From Deltaproteobacteria bacterium (GTDB taxonomy: Bacteria > Desulfobacterota > Desulfuromonadia > Desulfuromonadales > Geopsychrobacteraceae): a DNA stretch of 32,670 nucleotides. Shown one piece after another: positions 1 to 6,369 of the stretch; position 1 is the stretch's first letter, and each line of letters starts with the position of its first letter. Location: contig JAJRQI010000060.1 of assembly GCA_024280335.1 (NCBI GenBank), forward strand, positions 1 through 32,670. The letters are read 5' to 3'. The position numbers were made by a program, and so were the translations under genes. The notes under the pieces are model-generated. The model was not told the origin of the DNA. It saw nothing but the letters and a program-made list of their open reading frames with translations, and did no database searches.

Positions 1-111
1 AGGGCCGCAATATTCGAGTACATCGAAGTATTCTACAATCGTCAGCGACTACATTCTTCTAACGGATATGAGTCCCCGCTGGTCTTTGAGATGTTGCAAA
101 AAGCTGCGTAA
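1..111 (+). CDS. IS3-family transposase (OrfB), C-terminal fragment
   Basis: Frame 1 gives 36 residues ending at a TAA at 109-111, including the stretch [15 protein letters not shown] followed by [10 protein letters not shown]. This matches the conserved end of the DDE integrase domain in IS3-family OrfB proteins, whose usual form is YN..R.H..LGY.SP..FE. The protein cuts and joins DNA ends during transposition. Only its tail is visible, so activity cannot be judged. It is transcribed against the cas operon that it interrupts. Confidence 0.85.
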
Positions 112-138
112 TATTGTGTCCGGAAAAGTGTTGACACA
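1..138 (+). mobile_element. 3' end of an IS3-family insertion sequence
   Basis: The window opens inside an insertion sequence. The plus strand encodes the C-terminal tail of an IS3-type transposase, which stops at 111. A terminal-repeat-like sequence at 117-138 follows and ends in GTTGACACA. Immediately after it, the minus strand is coding sequence of cse1, so the element boundary falls at about 138/139. The other end of the element and its target-site duplication lie outside the window. The IS3 family is inferred from the transposase tail; the exact boundary is an estimate. Confidence 0.8.
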
Positions 139-580
139 TCACAATGCTTGCACATGACCCACAAAGAAAATCCCCCAACCCTGATGCATTCACAAAACAA
201 CTGTTCGTTGTACTGGCTAACCCTGTCAGCAACTTATAGAAATTGGTTATTTTTTCAGCCCTCACGGCTTTTACCTGCATGAAAGGATATTCGAGATGAT
301 CTAATTGAAACCAATCTTGGTACGGCGCGCAACCTTGATCAAAATTACCCCTCGACAAAGGAACCTGTATACGCTGCTTTAGTTCTGCGGTGTCTTTTGG
401 GTGAAATAGTATTTGCGTCAAACAGATCAACAATTGTAGTGCTGCCAGTTCCATATCATCGCGCGGCAAGCACAGTTCCCAGTGTTCGTCTTTACACAGT
501 AGCTGCTGCAACGTCAGTTTCTGTGCTGCTGCTTCTGTCTGTTGCCGCACGGGTATCCACGGATCGGTTAATAGATTCAT
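139..580 (-). pseudogene. cse1: Cse1/CasA (type I-E Cascade large subunit), truncated by IS insertion
   Basis: Cse1 is the large subunit of the type I-E Cascade complex; it recognises the PAM and recruits Cas3. The gene starts at ATG 580 with a strong GAGGAGG ribosome site, and its start overlaps the cas3 stop (ATGA). The N terminus MNLLTDPWIPV is the family hallmark, and a YPFMQV segment and a C-x2-C pair (LCGSC) follow. After about 147 codons the Cse1-like sequence ends exactly where the IS terminal repeat begins. The frame then runs 26 IS-derived codons to a stop at 59-61. Family members are about 500 residues long, so over two thirds is missing or displaced to the left of the IS. cse2, cas7, cas5, cas6e, cas1 and cas2 would be expected further left but are not in the window. 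Confidence 0.85.
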
Positions 581-3213
581 CTTTTCTCCCTCCTCAGTCC
601 GGTATCGCTGTGATACCTGAAAATGACCTTCTTTCCTTCGGTTATAAATCCGCTGCCATCCGGCTGCATCTTCAACCAGTAGCGATTTTTATCAACTTCA
701 GCAATATCATCCAAGCTATATTTCCACGCATTGCTCCCTGGTACACTGACACTGTTGAGTGCCAATGTTTCATTCAACTGATATTCATCCAGTTGGTCGA
801 GCAAATCACCATCAATCGTTTGCCGGCCATTCGTTGCCTCAATGTACGGGATGAGCGTCAGGCTCATTTCACCATCACGCGTCACAGCAGTAATGCTCTG
901 ATCACTGTCCGTAAATGGTGTCATGTCTTTGGCCATATTGACAATTTGTTGAGCCATAAACCTTTTTACACTTTCAATTTCATCCTTGAATTCCCGATAT
1001 GCCTCCGTCACTAATTCAGGTTCATCGTCCCATGAGTCTTCCTGGTAGACCGCTTCAATCCAATCCCGATAGGCTGCAGGAAATACAACTTGCTCCACAT
1101 CGATCAACATTTGCTCAGTTCGCCAGAGAACACGGTTGTTGGCGTAAACAACGCCGGTACCGCCGTAATCACCATCAGTCGGCACGAGAACCGAACAAAG
1201 TGGCTCGGTGAAGCCGGGAGGTCTTTTGTCGTTATTGTTTTCATGACGGTGCAAACGCCCCATTCGCTGAAATAGCAGATCGACCGGACAGAGTTGAGTA
1301 ATAATCCAGTCGAAATCAATATCAAGCGATTGTTCAACCACCTGCGTTGCCACCAGAATCCGCCCTTTGTTGCGGTCGCCACCTAGACCGAAGCTGTTGA
1401 TGACGCCTTTTTCTTTGCCTTGCCTGTCCAAAAACCGGAAGCGGGCGTGAAACAGATCGACCTCAATCGGCAGACCCTCAGTTTGCAACTTGAGCTGTTC
1501 ATAGAGAGATTGTGCCACATCAACCAGATTGCAGATAATTGCCACCTGAGCACCTTTTTCAGCGGCTTTAATTATTCGAGAAATCAGGTCATTGTCCGGT
1601 GTCATGTCTTGAGATCGTAAAGACTCAACATTGACGGTGACAATCTCTTGATCTGCAGCCTCCGGCAGCGAATATGGTACGACTTCGTGAGCAGCAGCAG
1701 AACTGATTAAAGGATAAGGCAATAGTTCTTCAGCATTTGTCACCTCTGCATTCCAGGCGGCAAACAGCTTCTGTTTCTGTTCAGCGGGAAGTGTGGCGGA
1801 TAGAAGGATTGCTGACCCGACCGAATTCTTCTGCTGTCGCAACACCTCTTCGAGCAAGCCGTACATGTAGGCATCATAAGCATGGACTTCATCAACAATC
1901 AGTACACTTCGGCCCACACCAAAACCACGCACAAACCGGTGGCGAACTGGCAGCACCGAAATCAGTATCTGGTCGACGGTGCAGACACCAATCTGGCCAA
2001 AGAATACTCGTTTGCGACTTTCGGCCAACCATTCGCTGCACTTGACCCAGCCATCCTGCTCATCGCCTTCTGCATGGTTGCTGTACTTTTTGAGATCGGC
2101 AAATTTTTCATTGAACCTGGCGTAACCGTGAGCAAGTAATAGGTTCGGCGAAGCAGAAAAAAGTATTGTGGCAGCTTTTTTCAACCGATCGAACATAGCG
2201 TTTGTCGTCGCCTGCGTCGGCAAAGCGAAGATGATAGAATCAGCCAACTCGGCATCAATAAGTTTCCACGCATGTGCTAAAGCAGCCTCAGTTTTCCCGG
2301 TACCTGTCGGCGCTTCAATAATTGTCAGTGCGGGTTCTTTAGGCAGCATTTCGGTCAGTACCTGCAAAGGTCGCGGGGATTTGCCTTCAGGAAGCAGTGC
2401 GGTAACGCCGGAGAAGGGTTTTGAACGGCCGATGATGCCGGACATCTCCAGAACCCTTCCCCCATCATTCGCTGACTTCTGATTGAAGTATGCTTCTGGT
2501 TCTTTGGGCTGAGAATGGAATGAAAAGTTTTGCACATCGCAACGAGAACCCAACCAGTCCGCGACAGAGCATAATCCGGCTAACATCGGTGAAGGCTCAG
2601 GCGGTTCGCTACTCAGAGAGAGACCTGCAGGAGATAAAAATAGCTCGGCGAGTACATTTTGCCATGCAACGCGAGCCGATAAATCGACATCCCTGTAACG
2701 TGAATCAACCGTACTGCTGAATTCGGCGCTGATGGCATAATCTGCGTTTTTCAGATGGCCGTGATGTCCGGTAACTGCTTCAATCCAAGGCTTCCATGAA
2801 ATCCACTGCTCCGGTTCGACCTCATCGAAAAACAAACCACCACCTGAATCAGCACATCCGAACAACTGGATATAATCCTTTCGAAACCAATAAAGACCGG
2901 CCTCGCCGTGCCAGTAACCCTTGATTTCTTTTTCTGAAGGGAGTGTGCCAGCCGGATAGGGGTACAGTGATTTAAAAGCAGGGGCTTTGAGCTGGAATCG
3001 GAGGTCGAACTTACCGTAATCGTGAAGGGCGCAAAAAAACAACAGCCAGGCACGAATCTGCTTCTCGTCACAATTACGACAAAAACTTCGCCTGATTGTT
3101 GCGCTGGAATCCCACCAGACTGCGACCATTGCTGCCACATCCAGACAATGATAGGGCAGCAGATGATAGCTGCCATCTTCCGCAGTTTTGCCCCAGTAGT
3201 TGAAAATTGACAT
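577..3213 (-). CDS. cas3: Cas3 HD nuclease-helicase, type I-E CRISPR-Cas
   Basis: Cas3 is recruited by target-bound Cascade and unwinds and degrades the invader DNA. The protein is about 878 residues, close to E. coli Cas3. Numbering from the upstream GTG at 3216, the HD nuclease domain shows H23, LHDYGKFD with H65-D66, H103 and GHHGH from 150. The superfamily-2 helicase follows with Walker A APTGTGKT (302-309), DEVH (442-445), SAT (473-475), VATQVVEQSLDID (622-634) and QRMGRLHRH (650-658). All key residues are present, so this gene looks intact. I prefer the ATG at 3213 because GGAGG lies 7 bases upstream; the GTG at 3216 is the alternative. Its start overlaps the stop of the preceding small gene and its stop overlaps the cse1 start, so the three genes form one operon. 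Confidence 0.95.
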   Translation of the reverse strand: MSIFNYWGKTAEDGSYHLLPYHCLDVAAMVAVWWDSSATIRRSFCRNCDEKQIRAWLLFFCALHDYGKFDLRFQLKAPAFKSLYPYPAGTLPSEKEIKGYWHGEAGLYWFRKDYIQLFGCADSGGGLFFDEVEPEQWISWKPWIEAVTGHHGHLKNADYAISAEFSSTVDSRYRDVDLSARVAWQNVLAELFLSPAGLSLSSEPPEPSPMLAGLCSVADWLGSRCDVQNFSFHSQPKEPEAYFNQKSANDGGRVLEMSGIIGRSKPFSGVTALLPEGKSPRPLQVLTEMLPKEPALTIIEAPTGTGKTEAALAHAWKLIDAELADSIIFALPTQATTNAMFDRLKKAATILFSASPNLLLAHGYARFNEKFADLKKYSNHAEGDEQDGWVKCSEWLAESRKRVFFGQIGVCTVDQILISVLPVRHRFVRGFGVGRSVLIVDEVHAYDAYMYGLLEEVLRQQKNSVGSAILLSATLPAEQKQKLFAAWNAEVTNAEELLPYPLISSAAAHEVVPYSLPEAADQEIVTVNVESLRSQDMTPDNDLISRIIKAAEKGAQVAIICNLVDVAQSLYEQLKLQTEGLPIEVDLFHARFRFLDRQGKEKGVINSFGLGGDRNKGRILVATQVVEQSLDIDFDWIITQLCPVDLLFQRMGRLHRHENNNDKRPPGFTEPLCSVLVPTDGDYGGTGVVYANNRVLWRTEQMLIDVEQVVFPAAYRDWIEAVYQEDSWDDEPELVTEAYREFKDEIESVKRFMAQQIVNMAKDMTPFTDSDQSITAVTRDGEMSLTLIPYIEATNGRQTIDGDLLDQLDEYQLNETLALNSVSVPGSNAWKYSLDDIAEVDKNRYWLKMQPDGSGFITEGKKVIFRYHSDTGLRREKR

Positions 3214-3617
3214 CACACCCCCTCCGTCCTTTCTCTCCAGTCGATAACAATATAGGAGCTATCTTTGCCGATCCAGAATCTTCCCAGTTCGTCACAAAGG
3301 CTCACCTCAACAGTTACTTGAATCCCCTTGCCGTCCAAACGGGCAAGATCAAAATCTATGTGCATTTCAGCACGTTGCAACTTTAGGTCGGGCCATTTCC
3401 TGATTGCTCCCAATAGGGTGCGCTGACACATTCCCGCCAGAATACGGTTTCGTTCAACATCAAACAGGCGTGGCGAAATCCGCAACCTTAGCAAGTCAAT
3501 CACCGTATAAGGCTGATTTCCTGATACCGCCTGAAACGCATAGTAGCTTGTTGAGCAATTAAACTGATAAGCAACACCTCCAGCAATCCCCTTCAAATCT
3601 CTACGCGACAATCCCAT
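3213..3617 (-). CDS. Unrecognised 134-residue protein coupled to cas3
   Basis: I do not recognise this protein. It starts at ATG 3617 after a GGGGGAAGG ribosome site. Its TGA overlaps the cas3 start region (GTGTGATG), so translation of cas3 is probably coupled to it. The sequence is soluble-looking, with no signal peptide or membrane segment. It has a Gly/aromatic N-terminal third (GGVAYQFN, SYYAFQAV), an Arg-rich middle (LLRLRISPRLFDVERNR) and a beta-rich C-terminal third ending in SSYIVIDW. I see no HTH, RHH or nuclease motif. Its position as first gene of a cas3-cse1 operon suggests a CRISPR-associated role, for example regulator, Cas3 partner or accessory factor. That is inference from context only. 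Confidence 0.7.
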   Translation of the reverse strand: MGLSRRDLKGIAGGVAYQFNCSTSYYAFQAVSGNQPYTVIDLLRLRISPRLFDVERNRILAGMCQRTLLGAIRKWPDLKLQRAEMHIDFDLARLDGKGIQVTVEVSLCDELGRFWIGKDSSYIVIDWRERTEGV

Positions 3618-3661
3618 ACCTTCCCCCTATTTATCGGCATGACTGACCCTACCACCCCACC

Positions 3662-3681
3662 ATGACAAAATAAGTCACAAT
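3662..3681 (-). repeat. 20-bp direct repeat, copy 1 (core AATAAGTCACA)
   Basis: This 20-bp stretch matches 4306-4325 at 17 of 20 positions in the same orientation, with an unbroken 11-bp core AATAAGTCACA. It lies about 45-65 bases upstream of the ATG of the cas3-linked small gene. The second copy lies about 120-135 bases upstream of the exonuclease start. It could be a shared operator or promoter element, or a trace of insertion of the exonuclease segment. The sequence alone does not decide. Confidence 0.45.
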
Positions 3682-3682
3682 C

Positions 3683-4189
3683 TCAATATTTCTGCAACCC
3701 CAACCAAACAAACGCCGCCATCCGGGCATCATCCAGCGCTCGATGCCGCTGGATTGAATCGTCAATTTCTCCGCCAAGGTGCCGATAAACTGTTTGCAAC
3801 TGATAGTTCGGCAATCGCAATAATTTCCGTCGACTGAGCTTCAGGGTACAGTCAATCCGATTCGAAAGACCGTGACCGAGTGAAGCGAATTCGGCGCGTA
3901 GAAAGCGCGTGTCAAAGGGGGCATTGTGGGCGACCAAGGTCGACCGTCCAATAAAGTTGTGGAATTTGGCAAACACCTCTTCCGGTCGTGGCTGGCCGCG
4001 CAGCATGGTTCTGCTGATCCCATGCACTGCTTGCGCCTGTGGATCAATCGGCACCCCGGCATCGATCAGACTCTGGAATTCATCGACAATTTCTCCGCCG
4101 GTCAGCCTGACGGCACCAATCTCGATAATCCGGTGTCCCTGTTGCGGCGACAGCCCGGTGGTTTCTACGTCGAAGACGACTAGGTCCAT
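3683..4189 (-). CDS. DnaQ-like DEDDh 3'-5' exonuclease
   Basis: This is a stand-alone exonuclease of the DNA polymerase III epsilon (DnaQ) superfamily, 168 residues long. The catalytic set is visible: D7 and E9 in FDVETTG, D93 in HNAPFD, and H149 with D154 in HRALDDA. The start at 4189 is chosen because AGGAG sits 6 bases upstream and the first strand of the fold begins at once; an open frame extends upstream to 4312 but shows no conserved domain. Such enzymes trim 3' ends in proofreading, repair or RNA processing. It lies just upstream of, and in line with, the cas genes, 65 bp from the small gene. DnaQ-like enzymes are known to trim prespacers in some type I-E systems, but they are also common housekeeping proteins, so a CRISPR role here is only a possibility. 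Confidence 0.9.
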   Translation of the reverse strand: MDLVVFDVETTGLSPQQGHRIIEIGAVRLTGGEIVDEFQSLIDAGVPIDPQAQAVHGISRTMLRGQPRPEEVFAKFHNFIGRSTLVAHNAPFDTRFLRAEFASLGHGLSNRIDCTLKLSRRKLLRLPNYQLQTVYRHLGGEIDDSIQRHRALDDARMAAFVWLGLQKY

Positions 4190-4305
4190 CTTTGGCTCCT
4201 GTTCGATCATTGCCGAAAGGGTTACAGATACAGACATCCCGACTAAATCTATCAGCTGGCCTCTTTTTTCGGCTACGGTTGTGTTACGAACCATACCGGA
4301 CAATA

Positions 4306-4325
4306 ATGTCACAATAAGTCACACT
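4306..4325 (-). repeat. 20-bp direct repeat, copy 2 (core AATAAGTCACA)
   Basis: This is the partner of the repeat at 3662-3681, with 17 of 20 positions identical and the same orientation. Together the two copies bracket the DEDDh exonuclease gene. On the minus strand this copy reads with two TGTGAC half-motifs (TGTGACTTATTGTGAC). Confidence 0.45.
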
Positions 4326-4357
4326 GGCAATTTAATTCCTCCATTTTTTCTTCAATT

Positions 4358-4384
4358 CGGGCGAATACAAGATTCGCCCCTACC
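4358..4384. repeat. REP-like palindrome
   Basis: This is a perfect 8-bp stem, GGGCGAAT (4359-4366) with ATTCGCCC (4372-4379), around the loop ACAAG, followed by the CTAC tag. The same design recurs at 4438-4467, 4700-4780 and 4803-4830, all next to or inside the RAYT gene. REP elements of this type are dispersed by RAYT transposases. Confidence 0.8.
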
Positions 4385-4437
4385 CGGTTCACAATCCTGG
4401 GCGCGGCAAGCAGCGCCTTTACGAAATGGTTAGAAAG

Positions 4438-4467
4438 CGGGCGGACACATGGGTCCGCCCCTACGGG
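4438..4467. repeat. REP-like palindrome overlapping the RAYT stop codon
   Basis: The stem GGGCGGAC (4439-4446) pairs with GTCCGCCC (4453-4460) and is followed by the same CTACGGG tag as the other copies. The TAG stop of the RAYT gene (4461-4463, minus strand) is the CTA of this tag, so the REP supplies the end of the gene. Confidence 0.8.
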
Positions 4468-5099
4468 TGGTTGGCCGGGTTTTCCTGGTCGGTTGCCCAT
4501 TTCATTGGGTTGCCGCGGATATATTGCCGGGCGCTGTGCAATTCGTTTTCGTCGCGGATGATCCGTTCGTAATAATTGCGCTGCCATAATTTGCCGGGGA
4601 ATGGTGGCCAATGGTTGTTTTTTACGTTTTTGATGTAGGCGTTGGTGGTCAATGATTTAAATGCCTGCACAATCCGCCCCACCGATCCAGCAGATGTCCC
4701 GTAGGGGCGATCCTTGTGATCGCCCGGTTCTTCACGATCCTTGTGATCGCCCGGTTCTTCACGATCCTTGTGATCGCCCGGGATTGAATTTTCTGGTAAA
4801 GACGGGCGAATACAAGATTCGCCCCTACGGTCATGCAAAATCAATATTCCGTGAAAATGGTTCGGCATGATGGTGAATTCGGCGGTGGTCAAATTCGGGA
4901 AACGTGACGGCAAACCAATCCAGGTGTTTTCCACCATCCTCCCGGCAGCGTTTAAACCCATGGCACCATCGGTGATGGTGCAGAAGAGCGATTCTCGTCC
5001 CTGCACACAAACGGTCACAAAATAGAAACCTGCTGAGGAATAATCGTAGTGAGACAGCCGAATCGACTGGCGATGATGGATCTCTGGATTGAATGTCAT
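4461..5099 (-). CDS. REP-associated tyrosine transposase (RAYT, IS200-like Y1 family)
   Basis: This is a single-strand DNA transposase of the Y1/HUH superfamily, 212 residues long, thought to mobilise REP palindromes. The N terminus has the family pattern (RQSIRLSHYDYSSAGFYFVT). The HUH metal-binding motif lies in MPNHFHGIL (H81, H83), and the candidate catalytic tyrosine is Y176 or Y177 in RNYYERIIRDENEL. Between these motifs, about residues 90-136 are encoded by REP sequence, including a threefold GDHKDREEP-type peptide repeat. The insertion is in frame and leaves both motifs intact. The start at 5099 is chosen from the start of homology; the ribosome site is a poor G-run. Whether the inserted loop is tolerated is unknown. 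Confidence 0.88.
   Translation of the reverse strand: MTFNPEIHHRQSIRLSHYDYSSAGFYFVTVCVQGRESLFCTITDGAMGLNAAGRMVENTWIGLPSRFPNLTTAEFTIMPNHFHGILILHDRRGESCIRPSLPENSIPGDHKDREEPGDHKDREEPGDHKDRPYGTSAGSVGRIVQAFKSLTTNAYIKNVKNNHWPPFPGKLWQRNYYERIIRDENELHSARQYIRGNPMKWATDQENPANHP
4700..4780. repeat. REP palindrome with 27-bp tandem repeat inside the RAYT gene
   Basis: The stem GGGCGATC (4705-4712) pairs with GATCGCCC (4718-4725) around the loop CTTGT. A 27-bp unit beginning GATCCTTGTGATCGCCCGG repeats at 4709-4735 and 4736-4762 and partially at 4763-4780. Because 27 is a multiple of three, the repeat adds exactly nine residues per copy to the RAYT protein and keeps the frame. Confidence 0.88.
4803..4830. 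repeat. REP-like palindrome inside the RAYT gene
   Basis: GGGCGAAT (4804-4811), ACAAG loop, ATTCGCCC (4817-4824), then the CTACGG tag. It is nearly identical to the copy at 4358-4384. It lies within the RAYT coding sequence and encodes the residues RRGESCIRPS. Confidence 0.85.
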
Positions 5100-5122
5100 G
5101 AATGTCCCCCCCCGGGAAAGAC

Positions 5123-5146
5123 GGGGCAGGCACTGCGGCCTGCCCC
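5123..5146 (-). terminator. Stem-loop downstream of pdhC, possible terminator
   Basis: A 9-bp GC stem, GGGGCAGGC (5123-5131) with GCCTGCCCC (5138-5146), lies 12 bases after the pdhC stop. On the minus strand it is followed by GTCTTTCCC, which is a weak U-tract. It could end the pdh transcript or protect its 3' end. Confidence 0.45.
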
Positions 5147-5157
5147 GGTGGATCAGA

Positions 5158-6369
5158 TCATTCGCTGACCAGCATGATCGGTGCTTCGAGGTAGCTTTTG
5201 ACGGTATCGAGAAATTCTGCGGCATCGGCACCGTCGAGCACCCGGTGGTCGGCGGAGAGGGTCAGGCGCATGACCGGTGCGACCGCCGGTTCACCCTGCT
5301 CATCGACGACAATTTCACCCTTGACGGTGCCGACGGAAAGCACCGCTGCTTGCGGCGGGGTGATGATGGCGCCGAATGATTCGACGCCGAGCATCCCCAT
5401 GTTGGTGATGGTAAAGGTGCCGCCCTCCATCTCCTGCGGTTGCAGACGACCCTTGTTCGCGGCTTTTTCACCCAGATCGCGAGCTTTGGCGCTGATCTGT
5501 TTGAGGCTGAGCTTTTCGCAGTTATGGAGAACCGGGTTGTAGAGTCCGCGATCGGTGGCGACCGCCATGGCGATATTGATATCGGCCAGCTCAACCCCCT
5601 GCTCGCCGTTCCAGGTGGCATTGACCCAGGGATGTTCCTGCAGCGCTTTTGCGGTGGCCGCGAGGACGAAATCGTTGATAGTGACGCCCAGATCCTTGCG
5701 GAAACGGATGACATCGGTCATGTCGACCGGCATGGTGACATAAAAGTGCGGGATCGTCCGCCAGGCTTCCTCCATTTTGCGGGCGACCAGCCGGCGGATC
5801 TTGACCGACTTGCCACTGCTGCTGTTGGCCGCGACCGAAATTTTCCGGGAATAAGCGGTCTCGGGCATTTCCTCGGGGCCAGCCCGCTCGACATCGGCCA
5901 ACACGATCCGGCCACGCGGCCCGCTGCCCTGGATCGACTTTAAATCAAGGCCTAATTCTCCTGCCAGTTTCCGCGCGGCAGGAGAGATGACCGGCCGGTC
6001 CGATTTACCCAAGGGCGGCGGCACGACAACCGGGAAAGCAGGTGTTTCGGCGACAGGCGGCTTCAGCGGTACTGGTTGCTCCTTCACAACCGCCCCAACG
6101 GTCTGATCTTTTGCCACGGAGGTGGTTCCGCTGGCAGTGCTCAAGGTCGCCAACAGGGTGCCGACCGGCACGGTCTGCCCCGCTGCGACGCGCAGAGACT
6201 CGATAACCCCGGAGTCAAAAGCTTCCATCTCCATGGTCGCTTTGTCGGTTTCCACTTCGGCAATCACCTGGCCGCGCTCGATGCTGTCGCCGACCGCTAC
6301 AAACCATTCGATCAGGGTTCCCTCTTTCATCGTATCGCTGAGCTTCGGCATGTTGATTTCTACGGTCAT
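5158..6369 (-). CDS. pdhC: Pyruvate dehydrogenase E2, dihydrolipoamide acetyltransferase
   Basis: E2 is the core of the pyruvate dehydrogenase complex; it moves the acetyl group from lipoate to CoA. The protein is 403 residues long. An N-terminal lipoyl domain carries the lipoylated K43 in VETDKATME. A Pro/Ala-rich linker leads to the E1/E3-binding domain from about residue 125 (SPAARKLAGELGLDL, GSGPRGRI). The C-terminal catalytic domain ends with the active-site H375 in LSADHRVLDG. There is one lipoyl domain. It is the last gene of pdhA-pdhB-pdhC, with 128 bp between it and pdhB. The E3 (lpd) gene is not in the window. A related 2-oxo acid E2 cannot be fully excluded, but the E1 pair fits pyruvate best. 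Confidence 0.92.
   Translation of the reverse strand: MTVEINMPKLSDTMKEGTLIEWFVAVGDSIERGQVIAEVETDKATMEMEAFDSGVIESLRVAAGQTVPVGTLLATLSTASGTTSVAKDQTVGAVVKEQPVPLKPPVAETPAFPVVVPPPLGKSDRPVISPAARKLAGELGLDLKSIQGSGPRGRIVLADVERAGPEEMPETAYSRKISVAANSSSGKSVKIRRLVARKMEEAWRTIPHFYVTMPVDMTDVIRFRKDLGVTINDFVLAATAKALQEHPWVNATWNGEQGVELADINIAMAVATDRGLYNPVLHNCEKLSLKQISAKARDLGEKAANKGRLQPQEMEGGTFTITNMGMLGVESFGAIITPPQAAVLSVGTVKGEIVVDEQGEPAVAPVMRLTLSADHRVLDGADAAEFLDTVKSYLEAPIMLVSE

Follow-up and report, generated by a model that had tools for sequence, protein, structure and literature searches.

The canonical type I-E operon, in the order given for Salmonella in one part of a published account (PMC8039139), runs cas3-cse1-cse2-cas7-cas5-cas6e-cas1-cas2. 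The locus that we investigated shares with it the succession of cas3 and cse1 but differs by an extra gene before cas3 and by a cut inside cse1. This raises the question of what the extra gene is for: does it serve Cas3, as an earlier note on this DNA had guessed, is it peculiar to type I-E systems, or does it belong to something wider? The window analysed here is a whole contig of 32,670 nucleotides from a draft genome of 72 contigs (3,585,041 bases, 99.51% complete).

The small gene and the operon remnant

The small accessory gene (3213..3617 on the minus strand) begins with ATG and encodes a protein of 134 amino acids without a known family. Its stop codon (3215-3213) and the ATG of cas3 (3213-3211) have one base in common in GTGTGATG (TGATG), and a GGAGG-type ribosome site of cas3, read from the sequence, sits within the 3' end of the small gene. 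The earlier note had described a real gene joined to cas3 by a stop/start overlap and provided with a clear ribosome site; the open reading frame and its one-base overlap bear this out, as does the AGGGGGAAGG that directly precedes the small gene's own ATG. Conservation of the frame in relatives, which the note had named as a check, was also found: the reading frame is kept in the homologues compared, and dN/dS, computable for 13 of 15 pairs (the other two were saturated), falls in the range 0.09-0.39. The small gene is thus under purifying selection and is not a chance open reading frame. Its description as the first gene of the operon is doubtful, since another gene, read in the same direction, ends 65 bp before it and the small gene may therefore not start the operon. 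This upstream gene (3683..4189, minus strand) encodes a DEDDh (DnaQ-like) exonuclease of the CRISPR-associated kind, recognised by Pfam RNase_T on a longer open reading frame and by PADLOC on 3683-4186 (E 2.2e-40); the start at 4189 is putative. A counterpart that is 69% identical over 159 residues is found in genome G079 (locus L104), where it overlaps the start of a type I-E cas3 and no gene lies between the two.

Downstream of the small gene, cas3 (577..3213, minus strand) encodes the type I-E HD nuclease-helicase (NCBIfam NF007248, 1147.7 bits; Cas3e in PADLOC), and it is followed by the N-terminal part of cse1 (cas8e; 134..580, minus strand), which covers profile positions 1-147 of 450. 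At the contig edge an IS3-like element interrupts cse1 near codon 149; of this element we see the C-terminal end of the transposase (integrase core; 1..111, plus strand; Pfam rve_2, 24.6 bits against a cut-off of 22) running off the contig; the end of the element was placed by eye between 111 and about 145. A search of the whole genome gave a single Cse1 match, again to profile positions 1-147 of 450, and none to Cas7e (Cas_CT1975 profile, 0 of 1); Cse1 and Cas7e are the cas genes that were looked for genome-wide, and an assembly gap is possible in a draft of 72 contigs. Unless it was lost in assembly, the effector complex may be gone, with the small gene, cas3 and the stump of cse1 left here.

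Beyond the exonuclease gene the window contains an open reading frame resembling a Y1 transposase (4461-5231, minus strand; Pfam E 9.8e-4, under the cut-off) and, at 4343-4830, palindromic repeats (GTAGGGGCGATCCTTGTGATCGCCCG and relatives) together with three tandem 27-base copies. The open reading frame and the palindromic repeats resemble a REP element with its transposase. An Rfam search of positions 1-6000 returned no result.

A family new to the libraries searched

Protein and profile searches covered 1,740 genome slots altogether, with some genomes repeated, and matched the family in 28 genomes. Six belong to the order of the window (6 of 147 relatives, the same six among 136 in a second search) and eight further ones come from a phylum sample (11 of 395 matched, including the window and two weak matches). 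The order of G302 added one genome (2 of 194 matched), that of G306 ten (13 of 199) and that of G160 two (4 of 257); one Rhodocyclaceae genome also carries the family, the one match among 274 genomes of its class. Two matches were dropped as weak, in G478 (E 0.0086) and in G515 (34 residues, E 5.6e-4, three stops). Neither plasmids nor phages yielded a family member in tblastn searches with two members as queries, the viral contigs yielded none when searched twice, and a first scan of the genome contigs with the window protein alone gave no result. The members are alpha/beta proteins of 134-147 amino acids. Decayed, truncated or fragmentary copies are present in 6 of the 28 genomes (G074, G091, G461, G706, G803 and G835), the copies of G008 and G595 are cut by a contig end, and that of G852 is divergent at its C-terminal end.

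The earlier note had held that the protein resembles no Cas protein, and indeed no curated Cas profile in NCBIfam, Pfam or PADLOC matched it. The profile searches and structure prediction that the note had proposed gave no credible family match and no convincing structural relative: PHROGs, Pfam and PADLOC returned no credible family for the small protein, NCBIfam a single hit far under the cut-off, and the PDB sequences one hit (E 0.21) with the window protein alone and none with a profile of 14 members. A weak match to DprA (PF02481) appears in 7 of 14 family members (best E 2.3e-4); we set this candidate aside, as the best score in the nine members examined in detail was 12.4 bits against a curated cut-off of 29.6. 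The AlphaFold model is confident (pLDDT 90.0, pTM 0.83) and predicts a single fold in the order two helices, two short strands, a long helix from a conserved (E)RNR motif, and three long strands. Fold libraries (PDB and viral) returned weak hits, for example to EsaG, gp25/TssE and pantothenate synthetase, none of them convincing, and a weak or absent fold match is not proof of a new fold. Neither an active-site signature nor a fold match was found that would support a biochemical role of the small protein. Among the papers listed by literature searches, none could be tied to the family, although absence from print is not thereby proven. As far as profile matching can tell, the small-protein family is new to the libraries searched.

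Copies upstream of cas3

A copy is found upstream of cas3 in 5 of the 28 genomes (the window, G082, G091, G008 and G074), which amounts to five of the six copies in the window's order, the one in G074 being a decayed remnant. No gene of size separates the copy from cas3 in any of the five, and in three (the window, G082 and G008) the two genes overlap or are within two bases of each other. In G091, whose type I-C locus carries a large array, the copy has been truncated and a few hundred bases separate it from cas3. The locus in the window is type I-E and the other four are type I-C, an assignment made from gene order and from matches of Cas8 or Cas5 to PDB entries (Csd1, CT1133, CT1134, Cas8) that we take to be type I-C complexes; these matches are strong for G008 (Cas5, 398.5 bits) and G074 (Cas8, 612.8 bits) and weak for G082 (33.7 bits) and G091 (29.9 bits). 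Among 134 genomes of the order, 32 hold 38 cas3-core matches, five of which are preceded by the small gene or its remnant.

A role specific to type I-E is not supported by this distribution. The genomes G103, G067 and G079 carry type I-E cas3 and cse1, and tblastn at E 1e-5 detected no small gene in them; the link to type I-E thus comes from the window, and the link to cas3 from five loci. The earlier note had named, as support for its guess, homologues lying repeatedly next to cas3 of type I-E; the neighbourhoods found agree with this as to cas3 but not as to the subtype, for only the window's locus is type I-E.

One chromosomal locus in the genus of G082 illustrates how the gene is combined with CRISPR operons. 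In G082, G091 and G103 (loci L100, L007 and L008, the last of these in G091) the same genes for a WYL regulator and a penicillin-binding protein, 77-94% identical, lie alongside three different CRISPR operons: two are type I-C, differ from each other and are accompanied by the small gene, and the third is type I-E and lacks it. The WYL regulator near the small gene of G082 is recognised by PADLOC. In G091 (L008; L116) the stretch between the truncated small gene and cas3 resembles, by eye, a degenerate type I-C repeat; a long array lies nearby (116 copies in the listed repeat family), and no match to this stretch within 3 mismatches was found in the 11 kb that hold the array.

Copies in other defence operons

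A recognised defence core gene is near the copy in 22 of the 28 genomes, always on the same strand; this is a raw adjacency count over genomes that are not independent, many of the copies in clade 2 coming from close relatives. Outside the cas3 group, 17 of 23 genomes have a copy near Azaca, Hachiman, restriction, UvrD-type, MmeI or DISARM genes. Azaca accounts for eight genomes (G160, G306, G324, G352, G461, G803, G840 and G1195); PADLOC scored ZacB and ZacC of G160 and ZacA of G1195, and the other cases were recognised by similarity to these. Hachiman is the neighbour in two genomes (G302, G595), the HsdR of type I restriction in two (G776, G1303) and type III restriction in two, scored in G818 and recognised in G871 by a Res 94% and a Mod 68% identical to those of G818. 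Single genomes have a UvrD-type helicase with BrxA (G417), an MmeI N-terminal fragment with RhuM (G084), and DISARM DrmA/DrmB (G835). Full-length copies therefore adjoin seven unrelated kinds of defence, namely type I CRISPR, Azaca, Hachiman, type I restriction, type III restriction, the UvrD-type system and the MmeI fragment, whereas DISARM is accompanied by a 34-residue fragment of the small-gene family. A DNA helicase is present in 21 of the 22 cores; the MmeI case has none in the part present.

In the non-CRISPR branch the small gene is usually the last gene of the defence operon, whereas in the CRISPR branch it lies upstream of cas3. Most full-length copies begin within about 60 bases of the preceding gene; the exceptions are G1303, with about 165 bases, and G160, where a transposase gene lies in between. 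Four genomes have only accessory genes or remnants upstream, in G852 a split 385-aa gene and a 461-aa gene and in G503, G755 and G763 a stretch of 45 residues of the 461-aa protein. No defence gene is in view in G706, whose copy is frameshifted, or in G886, whose copy is flanked by a peptidase gene and mutS, both identified by reading.

The 461-aa protein (L058 7996-9381, minus strand, and homologues), which matches nothing in Pfam or PADLOC, is encoded next to the small gene in many loci and is present in 97 plasmid records as well. In the four records inspected it was twice beside a UvrD helicase gene, once near RhuM and HsdR, and once near neither.

Apparent exchange of defence cores around the small gene

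The CRISPR-linked proteins form one clade with both type I-E and type I-C members (support 100/100). Within this clade the protein from the window groups with the type I-C members of G082 and G091 and not with the type I-C member of its own genus (G008), although this inner join is weaker (93/69). Identities to the window protein are 69, 69 and 48% within the clade and 33-37% for five other members in the identity matrix. In several pairs of loci the DNA homology breaks off no more than a few bases from the stop codon of the small gene, whereas in other pairs it continues beyond the stop or ends earlier. Different defence cores adjoin near-identical copies of the small gene, and in several loci the 461-aa gene and the small gene are joined in one block that follows cores as different as Hachiman, Azaca, type I restriction and the UvrD-type system. 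The pattern looks as if cores had been exchanged around the small gene, to judge from these sequence comparisons.

What the small protein may do

That the family accompanies many antiviral systems unrelated to one another suggests that it acts as a plug-in helper and not as a part confined to CRISPR. We lean, by a little, towards the view that the small protein is an optional accessory factor of DNA-targeting defence operons, mostly of those driven by SF1/SF2 helicases or translocases. The carrier systems contain Cas3, ZacC, HamB, HsdR, Res, a UvrD-type helicase or DrmA. The small protein would be made together with the helicase and would act on something common to these systems. As a first guess, its target might be DNA that the helicase has left unwound or degraded, or a host or phage factor that meets the helicase; since the helicases come from different families, a single conserved helicase surface is a less likely binding site. 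The protein would be dispensable, improving or broadening immunity from outside the minimal machine. The helicase theme itself is suggestive only, and could mirror how common helicases are among defences. More tentatively, and with less than even confidence, we consider that the protein may be a general-purpose immune co-factor, one small fold that plugs into helicase-driven defences of unrelated mechanism (type I CRISPR, Azaca, Hachiman, restriction of types I and III, and possibly DISARM) and performs an identical task in all of them while the cores are exchanged. Such a task could be the handling of the DNA intermediates created, or the shielding of the motor from phage inhibitors.

Several alternatives have to be weighed against the accessory-factor reading. 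The members of the CRISPR branch might be dedicated to Cas3, as a specific and translationally coupled co-factor or regulator, with the other branch doing something different. The position of all five cas3-linked copies directly upstream of cas3, the overlap or near-overlap in three of them and the well-supported clade that the CRISPR branch forms agree with this explanation, as does a back-of-envelope estimate (38 cas3 matches in 134 genomes of an assumed 3.2 Mb or so each) by which chance adjacency would amount to a few in 10,000 per copy, versus the five of six observed. However, the Cas3 proteins of types I-E and I-C are about 23% identical over 382 residues, yet the small proteins that accompany them are 69% identical; most cas3 loci of the order (all but 5 of the 38 matches) do without the gene; and the copies of G091 and G074 are, respectively, truncated at a distance from cas3 and reduced to a remnant. 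A dedicated Cas3 partner is thus unlikely. What stands of the earlier guess is the recurrence upstream of cas3; a role specific to Cas3 does not follow, given the 17 of 23 other genomes in which the copy is near other defences, and the guess is a special case of a wider family association. The note had also considered a safety factor. This is unlikely too: apparently intact cores exist with broken copies (ZacABC of G803 with a decayed copy, G074 with a remnant, G091 with a truncated copy) or, in the three type I-E loci, with none, so the small protein is probably not needed against toxicity of the core.

That the gene merely hitchhikes at a recombination junction, as an anchor or a selfish gene carried where cores swap and without an immune role, is decidedly improbable in our judgement. 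The homology breaks at the small gene's stop codon in several pairs, the different CRISPR operons at the same chromosomal locus in G082, G091 and G103, and the decay of several copies would be expected of a hitchhiker; however, the dN/dS values require selection at the protein level, on which ground we reject a pure DNA anchor, and one common anchor does not explain a CRISPR branch on the 5' side together with another branch mostly on the 3' side. We give even less credence to a leader or regulator, by which the open reading frame or its product, through coupling or through autoregulation, would tune how strongly the next gene is expressed. The coupling to cas3 in the window and the ribosome site of cas3 within the small gene are what such a leader would look like, but in the other branch the small gene is usually the last of the defence unit, where coupling to a downstream effector cannot be its function, and the protein sequence is conserved, which a leader does not need.

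Comparison with known accessory genes

An accessory gene is commonly attributed to a single defence system. If the accessory-factor reading is true, a protein common to CRISPR, Azaca, Hachiman and restriction loci points to a step that these systems share, and the small protein would be a compact, testable handle on it. It also cautions that a gene coupled to cas3 does not necessarily encode a Cas3-specific protein. The CAS-associated accessory genes of PADLOC, such as the DEDDh exonuclease and WYL, are likewise optional and adjoin several CRISPR subtypes, and both occur near the small gene, DEDDh in the window and WYL in G082. In contrast to them, the small family is without a profile in the libraries searched and also accompanies non-CRISPR defences. 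The domains common to distinct phage defences (PMC10952713) are likewise modules reused by unrelated systems; in the part of that paper considered here, however, most of them belong to known Pfam families of nuclease, ATPase, helicase or DUF domains, whereas the small gene encodes a separate small protein without a recognised domain. DUF2188 (PF09954), likewise small and unexplained, belongs to a different sequence family. A DUF2188 gene (86.4 bits) directly follows the small gene in L034 (7660-7880), and the same opening letters come after the small gene in L036, L037 and L060.
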